This document shows positions 3,481 through 23,352 of a stretch of 32,620 bases of DNA, one piece after another. Made by a program: the position numbers and the translations under genes. Position 1 is the first letter of the stretch; every line of letters starts with the position of its first letter. The DNA lies in NCBI GenBank assembly GCA_947588755.1, contig CANPZB010000018.1:1-32620 (forward strand), given 5' to 3'. Source of the DNA: Candidatus Gastranaerophilales bacterium. Lineage in GTDB: Bacteria; Cyanobacteriota; Vampirovibrionia; Gastranaerophilales; Gastranaerophilaceae. The notes below the pieces were generated by a model. The model searched no databases. It saw only the letters and a program-made list of their open reading frames with translations, and was not told where the DNA came from.

Positions 3481-4210
3481 AGGATTATACAAAATTATAT
3501 TTAAAAGATGAGTATGAAAAGTATCAGGTAATATACCGCAGAAAAAAGGTACTTGAAATATTAAACAAATATCAGCCTGAATCTGTTTTGGAAATAGGCT
3601 GCGGAACTGATTCCATCTTCAATTACTATACAAATCTTGCGTTCGGGGGGGGGGCATAGTTGAGCCTTCTTCTGAATTTTGTAAAATAAATCAAAGAAAA
3701 TTGTCCGACAACCCCAATATAAAAATTATTAATGATTTTGCTGAAAACGCAATTGAACAATTAAATAATAAGGAATTTGATTTTATATTAATATCAGGAC
3801 TGATACATGAATTGATAAATCCTGACATTTTAATGAGAGCCGTAAAAAAAATATGCACTTCTAAAACAATTGTACATATTAATGTCCCCAATACGCATTC
3901 TTTTCATAATCTTTGGGCGAAAGAAGCAGGAATTATTAAAAATCTTGAGGATTTATCTTTAACCGCAAAGCAATATCAACGTAATCATGTTTACTGTCTT
4001 AAAACTTTGAAAGAATATTGTATCTCACACGGGTTTGAAATTATCGATGAAGGAAGTTATTTTATAAAGATTTTTAATAATGCAAAAATGCTTGAATGTC
4101 TTAATAACAAAATATTGGACGATAATTTAATTAATGCATTAAATTCATTAATTAAATATTTTCCCGAAAACGGTTCCGAAATATACGTTAATTTACAAAA
4201 AATCCAATAA
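3459..4210 (+). CDS. SAM-dependent methyltransferase B, phase-variable, OFF (frameshift at poly-G)
   Basis: Second methyltransferase paralogue, with a good ribosome site (AGGAGA, 6 bases before ATG) inside the end of the ketoisomerase gene. It has motif I, SVLEIGCGTDS, then reaches G10 (3645-3654) and stops at 3657-3659 (AFGGGA-stop). The continuation, IVEPSSEFCKINQ...KIINDFAENA... to EIYVNLQKIQ, is open from 3656 in another frame and ends at 4210. G11 (or G8) would give AFGGGGIVEPSSEF and a protein of about 251 residues, aligned with paralogues A and C. The tract sits just before the EPS motif, a different place from A and C. Confidence 0.85.
3645..3654 (+). repeat. Phase-variation tract 2, G10
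   Basis: Ten G in methyltransferase B, flanks GCGTTC-G10-CATAG. Out of frame as sequenced; G11 or G8 is in frame. Shares TC before and CA after with most other tracts. Confidence 0.95.
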
Positions 4211-5984: not shown

Positions 5985-7112
5985 ATGGAAATAATTGAAA
6001 TTGATAAATCCGAATACAAAAGACTTGTTGTAAAGCCTTTTTCAAAATTTGAAACCGTTGAGTTTGCGGAATTAAATAAACATAAAGTTGATGATGTTAA
6101 ATATTTTTTGTTTAATAACGGAAAAAACAGGTTTGCAATATTTGCGGGAATTAAAGATAATATATTAAAATTTCCTTTTTCCGCTACTTATTCAATGTTT
6201 TCCGAGGTTACACAAAATAATAAAATTAATTGTTATTACGAAACAATATCAGCCTTAAATAATTGGGCAAAAAATAACAATATAAAAAAAATAATAATAA
6301 ACACACCTGCCCTAAGTTATGATTCTATGGAAATAACAAAATTGCATAATGCACTTTTGCAAAATGAGTTTAAAATAAAGAGTTTAGATGTAAATTTTGA
6401 ATATAATCTTGAAAATTTTGATGATGAATATATATCAAAAATTCATCACAGTGCAAGAAAAGCTTTAAAAGCCGCAATAAAAAACAATTTAAAATTCAAA
6501 AAAACAGACGATGTTAAATCCGTATATGAGATTATAAAACGAAACAGAGAATACAGAGGATTTCCTTTGAGAATGAATTTGGAAGAAATTATTAAGACTT
6601 CTAAAGTTATTGACAGTGATTACTTTATCGTAACCGATTCCGATGACCGCGGTATTGCTTCCGCATTTATACATCATCTCAGGGATGATTTGGTGCGGGT
6701 TGTTTATTGGGGGAATACTCCCGAAAGCGAAGCATTAAGACCCGTTAATTTTATTGCTTATAATATTTTCAAATTCTATAAAGAAAGCGGTAAAAAGCTT
6801 GTTGATATAGGTACATCTACGGTTGACGGGCAAGCAAATTACGGATTATGCGATTTTAAAGAGAATATAGGCTGTTCGTGTTCACCCAAGATTAATTTTG
6901 AAGAAGAATTTTTCTCTCACTCGGGGGGGGGGCAATGCGAGCCCGTCCGTAGTTTAGCAGCTTTATTATCCGCCATTTTAAATAAAATTGAAAACGAAGT
7001 TTTTGCTTTAATTTCCGTTGTCGAATTAATACTTGAAATATTTAATCCCGATGTTTTATCAGATGCCGTAAAAAGCTTTTATATATATCCCGGGAGGACT
7101 GTATGGAGTTAA
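5985..7112 (+). CDS. GNAT/FemAB-like acyl or aminoacyl transferase 1, with tract-controlled tail
   Basis: 375 residues. Residues 1 to about 305 align with the next gene throughout: FNNGKNRFAIFAGIKDNILKFPFSATYSMFSE, HHSARKALKAAIKNNLKF, KRNREYRGFPLRM, VRVVYWGNT and GTSTVDGQANYGLCDFKENIGCSCSPKINF. This is the BioF2/FemX-like GNAT arrangement. After that comes a G10 tract (6923-6932, SGGGQ) and a ~55-residue tail absent from the paralogue. G9 or G11 would end the protein within about 11 residues, close to the paralogue's length. The long form ends overlapping the start of the paralogue at 7103. Likely adds an acyl or amino-acid group to a sugar; substrate unknown. Confidence 0.75.
   Translation: MEIIEIDKSEYKRLVVKPFSKFETVEFAELNKHKVDDVKYFLFNNGKNRFAIFAGIKDNILKFPFSATYSMFSEVTQNNKINCYYETISALNNWAKNNNIKKIIINTPALSYDSMEITKLHNALLQNEFKIKSLDVNFEYNLENFDDEYISKIHHSARKALKAAIKNNLKFKKTDDVKSVYEIIKRNREYRGFPLRMNLEEIIKTSKVIDSDYFIVTDSDDRGIASAFIHHLRDDLVRVVYWGNTPESEALRPVNFIAYNIFKFYKESGKKLVDIGTSTVDGQANYGLCDFKENIGCSCSPKINFEEEFFSHSGGGQCEPVRSLAALLSAILNKIENEVFALISVVELILEIFNPDVLSDAVKSFYIYPGRTVWS
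6923..6932 (+). repeat. Phase-variation tract 5, G10
   Basis: Ten G in the first GNAT-like gene. Flanks GAATTTTTCTCTCACTC-G10-CAATGCGAG are nearly identical to those of the tract at 12027 in an unrelated gene on the other strand. Confidence 0.95.
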
Positions 7113-17481: not shown

Positions 17482-18990
17482 TTAGTCTGTAATTTCACCT
17501 AAATTTTTATAAACGAATTTGCAGCTGTTATTTTTAGCGACATCAAATCTTGAAGTTTCTCCGCTTAATACGGTTATAAAATCAATGTTTGAATTAATTG
17601 CCAGCTGCATATCGGTGTAAAGTCTGTCACCTGCAATTGCAAGATTTTTTTCTCCGTATTTTTCTATGATATGTTTAATTAAATTAATAGAGGGTTTGCC
17701 AAACGTAGTGTCAGGGGTTTCAGATGTTGTCAATTTTATTAATTCTATAAAACTTCCAATATCAGGTATATTGCCTTTTTCCGTCGGGCAAAATGTGTCT
17801 GCGTGTGTTGCAATATATTCTATATTTTTTTTGTTATTTAAAAGTACGGATATATTTTTCATTTTACTATAATCGATTTCTGTATCATAGGTTAATACAA
17901 TAGCTTCATTTGTATTATAGTCATATTCTATGTTAATATCCGGTAAATTTTCTTTTATAAATGAAGTAATTTCTTTATTGGATACTAAATATATTGATTT
18001 ATATTTTTTCAAGTATTCAATTAAAGGATATAACGGAGTTAAAATTTGTGATATTTTACATGGAATTCCGGCATTATTCAGTTTTTGAACATATTTATCC
18101 GGTGTTTTTGAAGTATTATTAGTTAAAAAATAAAAATCAAAAATATTACTGTTGTTTTTGACAAAGTTTATTGCGGGTGTAATCGGTTCATTCCCCATAA
18201 ACAATGTTCCGTCTAAGTCACAGATATAAGCTTTTTTTGATTTATAATCAAAAGTGGAAAATTTTTTATCTGCCGTTAAAAGATCTTCCATATTATCTAC
18301 TTCAACCCATTTCTTATGTTTTATATCAAATGGAAAAACGTCAACTTTTTTAAACAAAAAAGGAAATGCAATTTCACTCCATTGTTTTAAATCCTTTTTT
18401 ATTTCTATAAAATCACAAACAATTTTATATAATTCATCAGTGGCATTTTTTGAATATTTGTATAAATCAATAGAAACGGCATACGCTTTTTCTTTAGTTA
18501 TTGTTTTTGCTATATCAATTATTCTTTTATTTTTATCAACAACAATTTTCATGGATTCGTCAATAAATGTACCTGCTTCAGAAGCAATTGCCGATTCGTA
18601 CTCGCAATTAACAAATTCAAACATCATATTTTCATCATATAAACAATCTGCGTTATTTATGAACAAATTGTCAAAGTCAGGCTTATTATCATGAATGTAT
18701 TTTAAAGCCATATACAGTGAATACATGTTATTAGTTGAAAGATAATCTTTATTTTCGATTATATTAACTTTGGGATAATTCTTCAATAAAAATTCTCTAA
18801 ATTGCGGTGTTCTGTACCCTGTAACTATTGAAATATCTTCCTCTTTAATTCCTGCTTTAATATATCCTTGAATTTGATAATCTACAATTTCTCTTCCGTT
18901 AACCTTAACCAATGACTTTGGCATAATTTCCGTAATTGGATATAATCTGCTTCCAATGCCTGCGGCAAGTATTACTGCATATTTTTTCAT
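17482..18990 (-). CDS. Fused nucleotidyltransferase (LicC-like) and HAD-IIA phosphatase (NagD-like)
   Basis: 502 residues in two domains. Residues 1 to about 235: YAVILAAGIGSRLYPITEIM with the GxGxRxxP nucleotide loop, PKSLVKVNGREIVDYQ, and STNNMYSLYMAL, the pattern of LicC-type CTP:phosphocholine and related cytidylyltransferases; NNADCLYDE holds the metal Asp. Residues about 245 to 502: KAYICDLDGTLFMGN (HAD motif I), FYFLTNNTSKTPDKYVQKL (motif II plus cap), FGKPSINLIKHI and LAIAGDRLYTDMQLAINSNI (motif IV), as in NagD/p-nitrophenylphosphatases. The fusion suggests making and dephosphorylating a small alcohol phosphate, then activating it with CTP. Ribosome site AAGGAGA. A terminator separates it from TagD. 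Confidence 0.82.
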   Translation of the reverse strand: MKKYAVILAAGIGSRLYPITEIMPKSLVKVNGREIVDYQIQGYIKAGIKEEDISIVTGYRTPQFREFLLKNYPKVNIIENKDYLSTNNMYSLYMALKYIHDNKPDFDNLFINNADCLYDENMMFEFVNCEYESAIASEAGTFIDESMKIVVDKNKRIIDIAKTITKEKAYAVSIDLYKYSKNATDELYKIVCDFIEIKKDLKQWSEIAFPFLFKKVDVFPFDIKHKKWVEVDNMEDLLTADKKFSTFDYKSKKAYICDLDGTLFMGNEPITPAINFVKNNSNIFDFYFLTNNTSKTPDKYVQKLNNAGIPCKISQILTPLYPLIEYLKKYKSIYLVSNKEITSFIKENLPDINIEYDYNTNEAIVLTYDTEIDYSKMKNISVLLNNKKNIEYIATHADTFCPTEKGNIPDIGSFIELIKLTTSETPDTTFGKPSINLIKHIIEKYGEKNLAIAGDRLYTDMQLAINSNIDFITVLSGETSRFDVAKNNSCKFVYKNLGEITD

Positions 18991-19098: not shown

Positions 19099-19527
19099 CT
19101 ATTTTTTGGAGTCCTCCCCCCCCCCCTCAATGATAAATGCAGTTTTGTTAATGAAGGCTTTGGTTTCGGTTGTGGAAACTCCGGGAGTTCTTTGCAAATA
19201 AACGACTTCACAGTAATCCTTTAAAAAGTCAAATTTGCCTTCCCAATCATTTCCCATAACAAAAATATCTATTTTATATTTTTTAATATCATTGATTTTT
19301 TGTTCCCAATTGCATTCGGGAATTACTAAATCTACATATCTTAAAGACTCTAAAATGGTTTTTCTTTGTTCATAGGTATAGTATGATTTTTTATTTTTTA
19401 ATTTGTTAAATTCATCCGTAGATAATGCAACGACTAAATAATCACCCATTAATTTTGCTCGTTTTAACAAATTAATATGTCCCCAATGTAAAATATCAAA
19501 TGTTCCGTATGTAATTACTCTTTTCAT
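19099..19527 (-). CDS. tagD: Glycerol-3-phosphate cytidylyltransferase (TagD/TarD), tract at C-terminus
   Basis: 142 residues, starting MKRVITYGTFDILHWGHINL; the GTFDxxHxGH nucleotidyltransferase motif and later YVDLVIPECNWEQK, VMGNDWEGKFDFLKDYCEVVYL and RTPGVSTTETK match TagD closely (the family is about 130 residues). It makes CDP-glycerol from CTP and glycerol-3-phosphate, the donor for the two glycerophosphotransferases upstream. The G11 tract (19116-19126 on the + strand as C) falls after the conserved domain, read Glu-Gly-Gly-Gly-Glu, five residues before the stop. Other lengths would only change the tail (about 8 or 26 residues). Activity is therefore likely in every phase. Confidence 0.9.
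   Translation of the reverse strand: MKRVITYGTFDILHWGHINLLKRAKLMGDYLVVALSTDEFNKLKNKKSYYTYEQRKTILESLRYVDLVIPECNWEQKINDIKKYKIDIFVMGNDWEGKFDFLKDYCEVVYLQRTPGVSTTETKAFINKTAFIIEGGGEDSKK
19116..19126. repeat. Phase-variation tract 8, C11 on + strand (G11 in gene)
   Basis: Eleven bases at the far 3' end of tagD; coding-strand flanks CATTGA-G11-AGGAC. Does not share the TC-G-CAAT flanks. Confidence 0.95.
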
Positions 19528-19577: not shown

Positions 19578-20819
19578 TTATCCTTTTGACCTTAGAAGAT
19601 TATATTTTTTCACGTATGTCATTCGAATTAAAAATACAATGAACTCGGTAACTAAAACCATTGTTGCAATAGTATAAATATTCATCTTCCCTGTTAAAAA
19701 TAATACCACAAGACCTAAAACATGTACAACAGAACCTATAATTACACTGTTGTTCGCAATATTAGTATAGCCCATACCTCCTAAAAGGGGATAACCTACA
19801 AGAATTGACGGAACGACAAAGCTTGCCACTATACAAAAAATTCGGAGTACTTTATAAGCATTTGTCATTTCAACACCATAAAACAGTGCTATTATAGGTT
19901 TTGCAAAAACAAATATAATACTGCATGCAATAAAATTTATTAATACAGCTAATAAAAATATTTTTTTAAAAGTTTTAATATCCCTGTTTTTTGCGACATA
20001 AGGATATAATGCACCATTCAAGGGAATGGTAATTCCGTTTACTGCCTGATAGATTTTTTCGGCAGCTACATAATAGCCTACCATAATATTTGAGCCGATT
20101 AAACCTAAGCAAAAAGCATTTGTATTTGTGTAAGCGGACACCGATACCCGCGATAAAAAGAATTCAGTGGAGTATTTTAATTGTTTTTTTATGGAACTAA
20201 ATTTTGGCATGTAAAATTTTGCACCAAGATTTTTCATCGCAAAGTACATGCCGATTAATCCGGAAACTATAAAACCCATTGAATTAAGTAATGGAACGAT
20301 GATATAGTCACTTTCTGATTTAACAAAAACAAAAATCAAAATTAAAAATATAAGTTTGGATAAAATATTCAAAAACGTAATATATTTCATTCTTTCCATG
20401 CCTTGAAAAAACCAGACGGGATATATGGCATTACCCACAACCATTAAAAAAGAAAGATGAAATATCAGCCAATTTTGGTGCAATTTCGGAACAAATATAG
20501 TAAGTATGCATAATAATAAATAACTTATCAGAAGGAAAAATATTTTTAATACGGTAACTGCACTAAAAATATTAGACAAGTTTTTTTTGTTATGCCTGTT
20601 TACGGCAATTTCGCGTGTCGCTGAAAGTGCGAAGCCGTAATCCGTAAACATGGCAAAATACTGCATGAAAGCAAACGCAAAAAATACCAGCCCGAATTTT
20701 TCAACCCCCAAAATTCTTGATAAATACGGCAGATTAATAAGAGGGATTACGTAACTGATAATTTGTAATGCTCCCAGCGATAAAAAATTTTCTAATAAGT
20801 TTTTCTTCTCTATTTGCAT
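19578..20819 (-). CDS. wzx: Wzx-type polysaccharide flippase (MOP superfamily)
   Basis: 413 residues with about 12 hydrophobic segments. The opening LLENFLSLGALQIISYVIPL and INLPYLSRILGVEKFGLVFF, then TDYGFALSATREIAVNR, YPVWFFQGMERMKY, and PLNGALYPYVAKNRD are the classical Wzx/RfbX features. It would flip the undecaprenyl-linked repeat unit across the inner membrane, implying a Wzx/Wzy pathway together with the membrane protein at 27569 and Wzz. No ribosome site is obvious. No homopolymer tract, as expected for an essential assembly step. Confidence 0.9.
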   Translation of the reverse strand: MQIEKKNLLENFLSLGALQIISYVIPLINLPYLSRILGVEKFGLVFFAFAFMQYFAMFTDYGFALSATREIAVNRHNKKNLSNIFSAVTVLKIFFLLISYLLLCILTIFVPKLHQNWLIFHLSFLMVVGNAIYPVWFFQGMERMKYITFLNILSKLIFLILIFVFVKSESDYIIVPLLNSMGFIVSGLIGMYFAMKNLGAKFYMPKFSSIKKQLKYSTEFFLSRVSVSAYTNTNAFCLGLIGSNIMVGYYVAAEKIYQAVNGITIPLNGALYPYVAKNRDIKTFKKIFLLAVLINFIACSIIFVFAKPIIALFYGVEMTNAYKVLRIFCIVASFVVPSILVGYPLLGGMGYTNIANNSVIIGSVVHVLGLVVLFLTGKMNIYTIATMVLVTEFIVFLIRMTYVKKYNLLRSKG

Positions 20820-20835
20820 GATATTTCAGATTAAA

Positions 20836-20910
20836 CTAGTTTAGTGTCGTAATCCATTCTACCACACGCTCACAATTTTTACCATCCTGATATGAAAAAT
20901 ATTTTATTTT
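20836..20910 (-). pseudogene. C-terminal remnant of a glycerophosphotransferase
   Basis: In the gap between the flippase and the glycerophosphotransferase, the - strand reads KIKYFSYQDGKNCERVVEWI and then stops. This matches the last ~20 residues of the two neighbouring enzymes (FTYQDGKNCERIAKWIKSL at 22141 and KYQDGKNCERLTNYIKNL at 20930). There is an in-frame stop just upstream. It is the tail of a third, deleted copy, showing that the family has expanded and contracted here. Confidence 0.7.
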
Positions 20911-20929: not shown

Positions 20930-22131
20930 TTATAAATTTTTTATATAGTTTGTCAGTCTTTCGCAGTTTTTGCCGTCTTGATATTTATTAAATTTATCGT
21001 GAATTTCTTTTCTTTTATTTATATAATCATCTTTACCATGAAATATGGTTTCTATAACAGAATACATTTCTTTCCAGTTTAAAACTTGAGGACCGGGAAT
21101 GATATTGTCATATTCAAAATAAAGTTCTCTATCCGTTGTTACATAGTCTTTTTTATCAAAAGGGAAAAATAATATAGGTTTTTGTGTAAATAGATAATCA
21201 AAAAATATTGAAGAATAATCTGTAATAAGTAAGTCTGTAAATGCTAAAACAGAATAAATATCCTGTTGTATATCATAATCTTTTATAAATATAATATTTG
21301 AGAATTGTTGTTGTTGATTATCTATATCTTTCTGGTGATAAAAATGTAATTTTATTAAAAATATTGCATTCATTTTTATCATATTGTTATTTATCGTTTG
21401 AAGTTCATTAATTAAGAATTTTGAAAAATTAACTTTCCCTTCTTTTCTGTGGGTGGGCATATATATAATAATTTTTTTATTTTGTTCTTTGAAATTCGCA
21501 ATTTTTCTCTGTAGGGGGGGGGGCAATCGTTCGCATTATTTTCACTTATAAAATCACATCTGGGTTGACCTAAAATATCAAATCGTTCGGATAAATTACG
21601 AAAAGCTGATTTATATATATTATTAACTGTTTCTGATGTAGAAATTGTTGAATAATAATTATCTTTTAAGAAGGGAAAGATGAAATTTCTGATTTTAATA
21701 TATAAGGACTTTTTCTTTGTAATTGAATTGATTTTATCATCTTCCATTATTTTTTTTAATGGAATTCCATGCCATAAATTAATCACTTTAGCATTTCCAC
21801 TTGCCAAAAAATTTACGTCATTAAAACATGTTGAAATAAAATAATATTTTGCAATTAAAGAATACCAGTAGCCTAAAAAACTATAGGACATACAAACTTT
21901 CAAATTCTTTGATTTTACTAAATTATAAACCTCTTTGTTTGTAGTTAACCATACAGCAGTTATTTCAGGACAATTTTTTGAAACATATTCAAATAAATAT
22001 TTTGAATTATCGGCATATTTTTTACCAAACCAAGCACCAAAAATATATGTGTTTTTATCTCTAACAATGAATAAAGATAAAATATAAATCGGCAAATTAA
22101 TTAAATATTTGAAAAAATTAATAATTTTCAT
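20930..22131 (-). CDS. CDP-glycerol glycerophosphotransferase (TagB/TagF-like) 1, phase-variable, OFF
   Basis: Two frames joined at a tract. The N-terminal part (to 21412) has TYIFGAWFGKKYADN, FISTCFND, NLWHGIPLKKI and LGQPRCDFISENN, the start of the Glyphos_transf domain. The C10 run in the gene (21514-21523) throws the frame into an early stop at 21412-21414. The remainder (PLQRKIANFKEQNKKIIIYMP, LLITDYSSIFFDYLFTQKPI, KYQDGKNCERLTNYIKNL) is open to 20930. C11 would give about 400 residues, equal to the next gene (403). The active enzyme would transfer glycerol phosphate from CDP-glycerol to a membrane-linked glycan. As sequenced it lacks the catalytic C-terminal half. Confidence 0.88.
21514..21523. 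repeat. Phase-variation tract 9, G10 on + strand (C10 in gene)
   Basis: Ten G, flanks AATTTTTCTCTGTA-G10-CAATCGTTC. Out of frame now; one more base (G11) or G8 restores the enzyme. The upstream flank matches tracts 5 and 7. Confidence 0.95.
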
Positions 22132-22140
22132 AGATTAATT

Positions 22141-23352
22141 CTACAAACTTTTAATCCATTTTGCAATACGTTCACAATTTTTCCCGTCTTGATAAGTAAA
22201 AGTCATATCTCTTAATATTTTTCTTTGTTCTTTAAAGTTATCAATTCCGTTTATTGTTTTTGTCATCGCATTGATAAGTTCATCTTCGTTTTTAGCTGTT
22301 TCGCCCGCAGCATATTCTTTAAAAGGCATATAAAAAGTATGACATTTTTCCTGATATTTCTCTAAATCAGGCACATAATATATAATGGGTCTATCTAATA
22401 ATAAATAATCAAAAGAAGCTGATGAGTAGTCTGTTATAAGTATATCAGCGTATTTTAAAACCGTATTGATATCTGTATTTGCTTCTAATTTGTGAATAAA
22501 TTCATTGTTTAAATTAAAATTGTTCACATCAACAGGGTGCAATTTTATTATTAGAACAGCATTATTTTCGTTTAGTACATCTTTTAATTTTTCTGAATTT
22601 ATATAATTCATAACATTTTCTTTAGTATCTCTGTATGTTGGGATATATAATAATATTTTTTTGCCGGATTTTTTTATTTCTGAAATTTTATGAATTTCAT
22701 CTTCTATAAATATATCTATATCTTTGATATCGTCATTAAACAGAATATCGGTTCTTGGAGCTCCGAGTTTTACAACTTTTTCGTCGGACAGCCAGAAGGC
22801 ATGTTTTAAAATATTTGTATCGTATTTGCCGTTAGATATCATATAATCACTATTGATGAATAAATTTTTATATATTTTCTTTTTTGTTTCCGATAATTCG
22901 GAATAGTTTCTGTTGGCTAAGTCAAACCCTATTGTCTTTAAAGGAATTCCATGCCAGCAATTTATTAATATAGCACCATAAGACAAAAATCTTGAAATCT
23001 CGGTTTTAAATGTGTCTACGTTTAATATATAGTATTTTGCTTTTAAACAATAATATAGCCCTTTAAGAGAATATTTATAAAATGCGATATAACCTTTATC
23101 GTTTAAAGTTTTTACAATTTTTTTATCTGTGCTAATCCACACAGGCTTAATATTATATTCAGGATGCTGGCTCAGATATAAATATAAAAATTTAGTATTA
23201 TGAGTAAAAGAGTTTTTATTTTTAATTGTTACCACACAATTTAAAGCAGCAATTTGTTTATCTCTCGGAAATATTAACAGTAAAATTTTACCTATAATAA
23301 TTCTGAGAGAATAATATAAAAAAAATCTTGTTTGTTTAAAGCATTCTATCAT
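22141..23352 (-). CDS. CDP-glycerol glycerophosphotransferase (TagB/TagF-like) 2, stable
   Basis: 403 residues, intact, without a tract. Shares with the neighbour AKYYILNVDTF, NCWHGIPLKTIGFDL (acceptor-side His region), LGAPRTDILFND, KKILLYIPTYRDTK, ADILITDYSSASFDYLLLDR and the end YQDGKNCERIAKWIKSL. The family is monofunctional TagB/TagF-type; it uses CDP-glycerol from TagD. An N-terminal hydrophobic stretch suggests membrane association. Because this copy is constant while copy 1 is switchable, the two may add the first and further glycerol phosphates, or work on different sugars; this is inference. Confidence 0.88.
   Translation of the reverse strand: MIECFKQTRFFLYYSLRIIIGKILLLIFPRDKQIAALNCVVTIKNKNSFTHNTKFLYLYLSQHPEYNIKPVWISTDKKIVKTLNDKGYIAFYKYSLKGLYYCLKAKYYILNVDTFKTEISRFLSYGAILINCWHGIPLKTIGFDLANRNYSELSETKKKIYKNLFINSDYMISNGKYDTNILKHAFWLSDEKVVKLGAPRTDILFNDDIKDIDIFIEDEIHKISEIKKSGKKILLYIPTYRDTKENVMNYINSEKLKDVLNENNAVLIIKLHPVDVNNFNLNNEFIHKLEANTDINTVLKYADILITDYSSASFDYLLLDRPIIYYVPDLEKYQEKCHTFYMPFKEYAAGETAKNEDELINAMTKTINGIDNFKEQRKILRDMTFTYQDGKNCERIAKWIKSL

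Follow-up and report, generated by a model that had tools for sequence, protein, structure and literature searches.

Two adjacent genes in a surface-glycan locus of Candidatus Gastranaerophilales bacterium encode glycerophosphotransferase-like proteins (Pfam family PF04464), and the reading frame of one of them is interrupted at a run of ten cytosines. The question is whether this gene has been lost, has been misread, or is one that the bacterium switches on and off. Contingency genes that switch at poly-G or poly-C runs are textbook features of Campylobacter and its relatives. Among the titles and opening portions of abstracts that our search covered, none dealt with phase variation, phase-variable genes or homopolymers in Melainabacteria, Gastranaerophilales or Vampirovibrionia.

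We analysed a stretch of 32,620 nucleotides, referred to here as the window, and call the interrupted gene copy 1 and its intact neighbour copy 2. Very likely, copy 1 is a phase-variable gene of the simple-sequence contingency type, which would switch by slippage at a poly-C tract in an interdomain linker and which is OFF at C10 in the one assembly analysed. Points that weigh against such a switch include the absence of the tract from three orthologues, the scarcity of tracts across the PF04464 loci examined and the chance that a 10-base run was miscounted in a single assembly.

Copy 1 is divided at a C10 tract

Copy 1 occupies positions 20930 to 22131 on the minus strand, and the C10 tract (G10 on the plus strand) lies at 21514-21523. 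The N-terminal frame (21412-22131, minus strand) begins with an ATG at 22131 and runs through 203 codons before it reaches the tract; beyond the tract it continues for 33 codons and then meets a stop, so that the present state is predicted to give a truncated product of 239 aa. The C-terminal frame (20930-21526, minus strand) has 193 stop-free codons between the tract and its natural stop at 20930 and contains the TDYSS motif. Neighbouring genes show an off-frame stop rate of 10%, at which the probability that 193 off-frame codons would be open by chance is about 1.5e-9.

Both halves belong to PF04464. The N half matches positions 7-197 of the 367-position profile (1.7e-24, 86.9 bits) and the C half matches positions 190-365 (2.7e-44, 152.1 bits); each exceeds the gathering score of 22.1 bits, and together they span the whole domain. 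The frame break therefore sits between the two matches. The tract is the sole lesion of the gene, with zero stops elsewhere across 396 codons. Copy 1 carries a mononucleotide run of slipping length within the gene, as contingency genes do, and its halves are otherwise intact and homologous, such that a change in tract length alone would be predicted to restore the frame. Runs of A or T are also found in copy 1 (T7, T8 and A8 are seen across copies 1 and 2). The preliminary description had placed the break at 21514-21523, with resumption in the next frame, which includes the DYSS region, and the frames and the Pfam matches bear this out. It had also named accumulated nonsense mutations as evidence that would count against switching; none were found, and both halves are open and undecayed.

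Whole orthologues lack the tract

The nearest relatives of copy 1, retrieved by a search with an alignment of C-terminal halves, are found in RUG12268, RUG14125 and a third genome, G296, all in the family of the host. Their identity to the C half is 58-59%, and identity to the N half is about 50% in the two measured (RUG12268 and RUG14125). All three genes are whole, with open frames of 405-433 aa, and in none of them do G or C runs reach a length of 6. Counted by eye, the linker that separates the RCD motif from the following helix is 12 residues long in the orthologues and would be 14 or 15 in copy 1. Because three whole orthologues have no tract and a linker 2-3 residues shorter, the tract, with its flank, is a small derived insertion in a linker that tolerates changes in length. 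Linker length differs among the sequences of the homologue alignment, and in a structural model of the RUG14125 protein (pLDDT 78, pTM 0.82) the tract site falls in a coil (residues 199-204) between the two domains. A Foldseek search with this model returned TagF structures as top matches (TagF 3l7m, 1.6e-20).

Nucleotide differences between copy 1 and its orthologues fall mostly at the third codon position. Across the first, second and third positions they are 0.295, 0.158 and 0.505 for the C half against the RUG12268 gene, and 0.314, 0.189 and 0.53 for the N half against an orthologue. The comparisons show both halves under constraint, the C half without drift, although most of that history is older than the tract. 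The OFF frame just past the tract resembles the orthologues at one place (EKLR), which we set aside as a coincidence, since the other frame aligns gap-free to a further homologue (L277).

The orthologues also bear on whether the break is bypassed during expression. If -1 ribosomal or transcriptional slippage on C10 recoded the message constitutively, every allele would yield some full-length protein. A -1 shift would indeed be required, and identical codons follow one another in the tract, but the 80 bases past the tract hold no stable structure (MFE -2.6 kcal/mol, z 0.23), the orthologues lack any such site, and the abundance of other tracts points to mutation. We consider constitutive recoding extremely doubtful.

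The window is rich in G/C runs, which probably slip in this genome

The window contains 10 G/C runs, each of at least 10 bases and mostly in surface-glycan genes. Under a first-order model of this sequence, about 0.1 G or C runs with a length of at least 8 are expected, compared to the 10 observed, and the observed count of G9 matches was reached in 0 of 100 shuffles. Three of the runs split genes (2502, 3645 and 21514) and three are in frame, well inside genes (6923, 9695 and 12027). The other four (4941, 5833, 19116 and 24562) lie at gene ends, within approximately the last 15 codons, including those of the genes for TagD and an acyltransferase; because of this position, a frame change there alters only the tail of the product. 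The two further split genes, at 2502-2515 (C14) and 3645-3654 (G10), have downstream halves that are methyltransferase-like, and both genes are probably OFF as well.

These other runs help in judging the possibility that the C10 tract was simply miscounted, in which case the true majority length would be in frame and copy 1 would be ON in the sampled population. The assembly is in 89 contigs, homopolymers of 10 are prone to error, and the halves of copy 1 look maintained, all of which would fit a miscount. But with two more genes of the window split at runs and others in frame, the locus looks as expected of a mixed phase state, and a miscount would change the state of copy 1, not the presence of a switchable tract. 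We therefore judge a miscounted ON gene to be improbable, and retain slippage at the C10 tract as the preferred reading.

A weak similarity was seen in the DNA surrounding the tracts at 6923, 12027 and 21514. The best pair matches at 19 of 27 positions, a value reached in 10.6% of random sets, and the mean similarity was reached in 1.9%; we do not claim a shared cassette. Promoter-like sites in the window occur at chance level (62 vs 63.6), and terminator-like sites, which were also scored, were uninformative.

The host genome (1.83 Mb, 89 contigs) contains 92 G/C runs with a length of at least 8. Dispersed repeats that carry G8-G12 at a fixed place account for the majority: 38 in family A, a count that includes one copy (L124, G12) with flanks closer to a small third family, 20 in family B and 8 in small families. 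The repeats of family A (e.g., L053 and L054) and family B (e.g., L059 and L106) are very roughly 150-250 bases long, and many contigs end near copies of them. With three contig-edge repeat copies set aside, unique sequence contains 23 runs, of which the window has 10 and the remainder of the genome 13, an enrichment (binomial 3e-12) to be read with the knowledge that the window had been chosen with tracts in view. Outside the window, the genes hit by runs that could be identified are AlgX-like, PMP-repeat, asparagine-synthase-like, FkbM, DUF2142, PMT_2, DUF1796 and RamC-like genes and one for an EF-hand protein, and several of these are read as having surface or glycan functions.

The repeats also offer a proxy for slippage. 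Among pairs of copies with at most 1 mismatch in the 45 bases past the run, run length differs in 73 of 178 pairs of family A and 30 of 75 pairs of family B, although pairs share copies and are not independent. When both flanks were compared (85 bases, at most 2 mismatches), run length differed in 9 of 18 and 4 of 14 pairs, respectively. Because near-identical copies differ in the length of the G run, tracts probably slip in this genome, though assembly error may account for part of the difference. A C comes directly after the G run in 17 of the 23 unique runs, compared to 843 of 3887 when shorter runs of 3-5 G are taken from these sequences. Per-genome counts of runs of 9 or more range from 0 to 115 in 35 other members of the family.

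Copy 2 and remains of a third transferase gene

Copy 2 (22141-23352, minus strand) lies 9 bases upstream of copy 1 and is a single open PF04464 gene. As the preliminary description held, it has no such tract, its longest G/C run being 3. The two copies are 33-36% identical, and so are not recent duplicates. The further proposal, that glycerol-phosphate addition is switchable for one enzyme and constant for the other, survives in part. Its first half agrees with a copy 1 that is broken solely at the tract and has maintained halves, next to a copy 2 that is free of G/C tracts; "constant", however, may not apply to the second, given the G11 run in the TagD gene, the tracts in other genes of the locus and the A/T runs of 7-8 within copy 2 itself.

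Between copy 1 and the flippase gene that follows it lies the degraded C-terminal tail of a third PF04464 gene (20836-20892, minus strand), which translates as YQDGKNCERVVEWITTLN followed by a stop. Of seven sequences compared at the DNA level, the nearest was L034 (46 of 56 positions). We infer that the transferase slot in front of the flippase has gone through one or more rounds of rebuilding.

This tail, as a sign that transferase genes at the locus decay or are replaced, could be taken to mean that copy 1 is a fixed, recently inactivated pseudogene, redundant beside an intact copy 2, with the frameshift as its first decay event. The form of the damage argues otherwise: a single lesion at a slippage-prone tract with no other stop in the 396 codons, a tract inserted in a tolerant linker, and nine more tracts in the same window. 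A fixed pseudogene is accordingly very improbable in our judgement.

Neighbouring genes and possible donors

In minus-strand order, the locus consists of genes for an acyltransferase, a glycosyltransferase, copy 2, copy 1, a flippase, TagD, a fusion of an NTP-transferase with a HAD phosphatase, and Wzz. The flippase-like Polysacc_synt gene (19578-20819, minus strand) has counterparts, 72-75% identical, after the copy-1 orthologue in both RUG12268 and RUG14125. It is possible that the OFF state of copy 1 exerts polarity on this downstream gene.

The TagD-like glycerol-3-phosphate cytidylyltransferase gene (19099-19527, minus strand) scores 197.6 bits against TIGR01518, above the cut-off of 165.4, and is the sole match in the host genome at the cut-off used. 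The G11 run at 19116-19126 lies a few codons from its 3' end; since this is past the catalytic domain, TagD is not expected to be switched off by the run. The NTP-transferase/HAD phosphatase fusion (17482-18990, minus strand) is a possible second supply of activated polyol and may be a second producer of a CDP-polyol. At the threshold applied, 5 of the 288 genomes searched have such a fusion, with an adjoining PF04464 match in all five.

Equivalog scores place neither transferase among TarF, TarL or TarB. Against the NCBIfam equivalogs, which have cut-offs of 500-1000 bits, the copy-1 halves scored singly reached 43.6 and at most 82.2 bits, and copy 2 reached 160 bits. The presence of TagD in the locus makes glycerol-phosphate transfer, with CDP-glycerol as donor, plausible for copy 1. 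As the locus has two nucleotidyltransferases (TagD and the fusion), the two transferases could take different donors. In one other locus (L209) a copy-2-like enzyme occurs together with the flippase and TagD, and in G296 the copy-1 orthologue has TagD about 1.3 kb beyond it; both transferase subfamilies can thus accompany TagD. A strict pairing of copy 1 with the fusion's donor and of copy 2 with TagD's, as RUG14125 and L209 had suggested, was dropped because G296 pairs a copy-1 orthologue with TagD.

A more elaborate arrangement may be imagined for the locus, in which two polyol-phosphate decorations are made from two donors, the phase of copy 1 together with polarity on the flippase toggles the cell between two surface polymers instead of adding or removing a single group, and the transferase slot is exchanged by recombination, leaving the third-copy tail. 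We consider this rather unlikely.

Proposed switching and comparison with known systems

If copy 1 is phase-variable, slipped-strand mispairing at the linker poly-C would alter the length of the tract as the DNA is replicated. Of the three length classes, one (2 modulo 3 on the present reading) would fuse the halves, giving a complete PF04464 transferase whose linker has gained a few prolines, while the other two classes, C10 included, would give a truncated product that lacks the C-terminal TDYSS domain. Copy 2, upstream and without such a tract, would be made regardless of the state of copy 1. The population would then be mixed, with a surface polymer that either has or lacks the copy-1 polyol-phosphate step. 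The donor of copy 1 would probably be CDP-glycerol or a related CDP-polyol, and the acceptor, the role at the surface and a benefit of the switch, such as escape from phages or immunity, are presumed in this scheme.

In the capsule locus of C. jejuni, poly-G runs in transferase genes (cj1421, cj1426 and 06810) are reported to switch frame and phage sensitivity (PMC8949473). These resemble copy 1 in that the run is inside a surface-glycan transferase gene. They differ in enzyme family and phylum, and variation was observed there whereas it is deduced here. The C. jejuni NCTC12662 gene 06875, which encodes a CGPTase, is needed for phage adsorption; exposure to phage CP39 led to its inactivation, with mutations at nine sites, most often the deletion of a T (PMC8949473). 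One isolate was mutated in a T8 run, and the authors state that no mutation was in a homopolymeric tract of the kind present in the MeOPN transferase genes (PMC8949473). Gene 06875 and copy 1 are both capsule-type or glycan-locus cases in which a glycerophosphotransferase is turned off by frameshift, but the mutations in 06875 are spread over those nine sites and the break in copy 1 is at a C10 run. The HS1 capsule locus has a CGPTase close to TagD (PMC7901785), and another paper concerns a phase-variable capsule in Akkermansia (PMC13343947). The fold and the PF04464 profile are common to copy 1 and the teichoic-acid transferases TagF, TarF and TarL, but copy 1 falls below the equivalog cut-offs and lies in a Wzx/Wzz-type glycan locus, not in a wall teichoic acid locus.

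A gut relative of the cyanobacteria seems to run a set of contingency genes comparable to that of Campylobacter. Should sequencing reads confirm this, uncultured gut bacteria would vary their surface glycans at random, which would bear on phage predation and on strain tracking.

Tracts in other PF04464 genes

A PF04464 match is present in 122 of 288 genomes drawn from the family. We examined 70 loci with strong matches (from about 86 bits upward), one of which is copy 2 of the host. Among these loci outside the host, just one genome (G253) shows a PF04464 gene with internal runs that are 9 or longer, a C10 and a C9 that both keep the frame. In another genome (G083), a G10 run lies within the open frame, ahead of the probable start of the PF04464 gene. 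Tracts in PF04464 enzymes are rare, yet they are found beyond the host. The G253 gene, from another species of the family, is a fused IspD-epimerase-PF04464 gene (L134, G253:C15), and its C runs, at 245-254 and 1370-1378, lie between domains.
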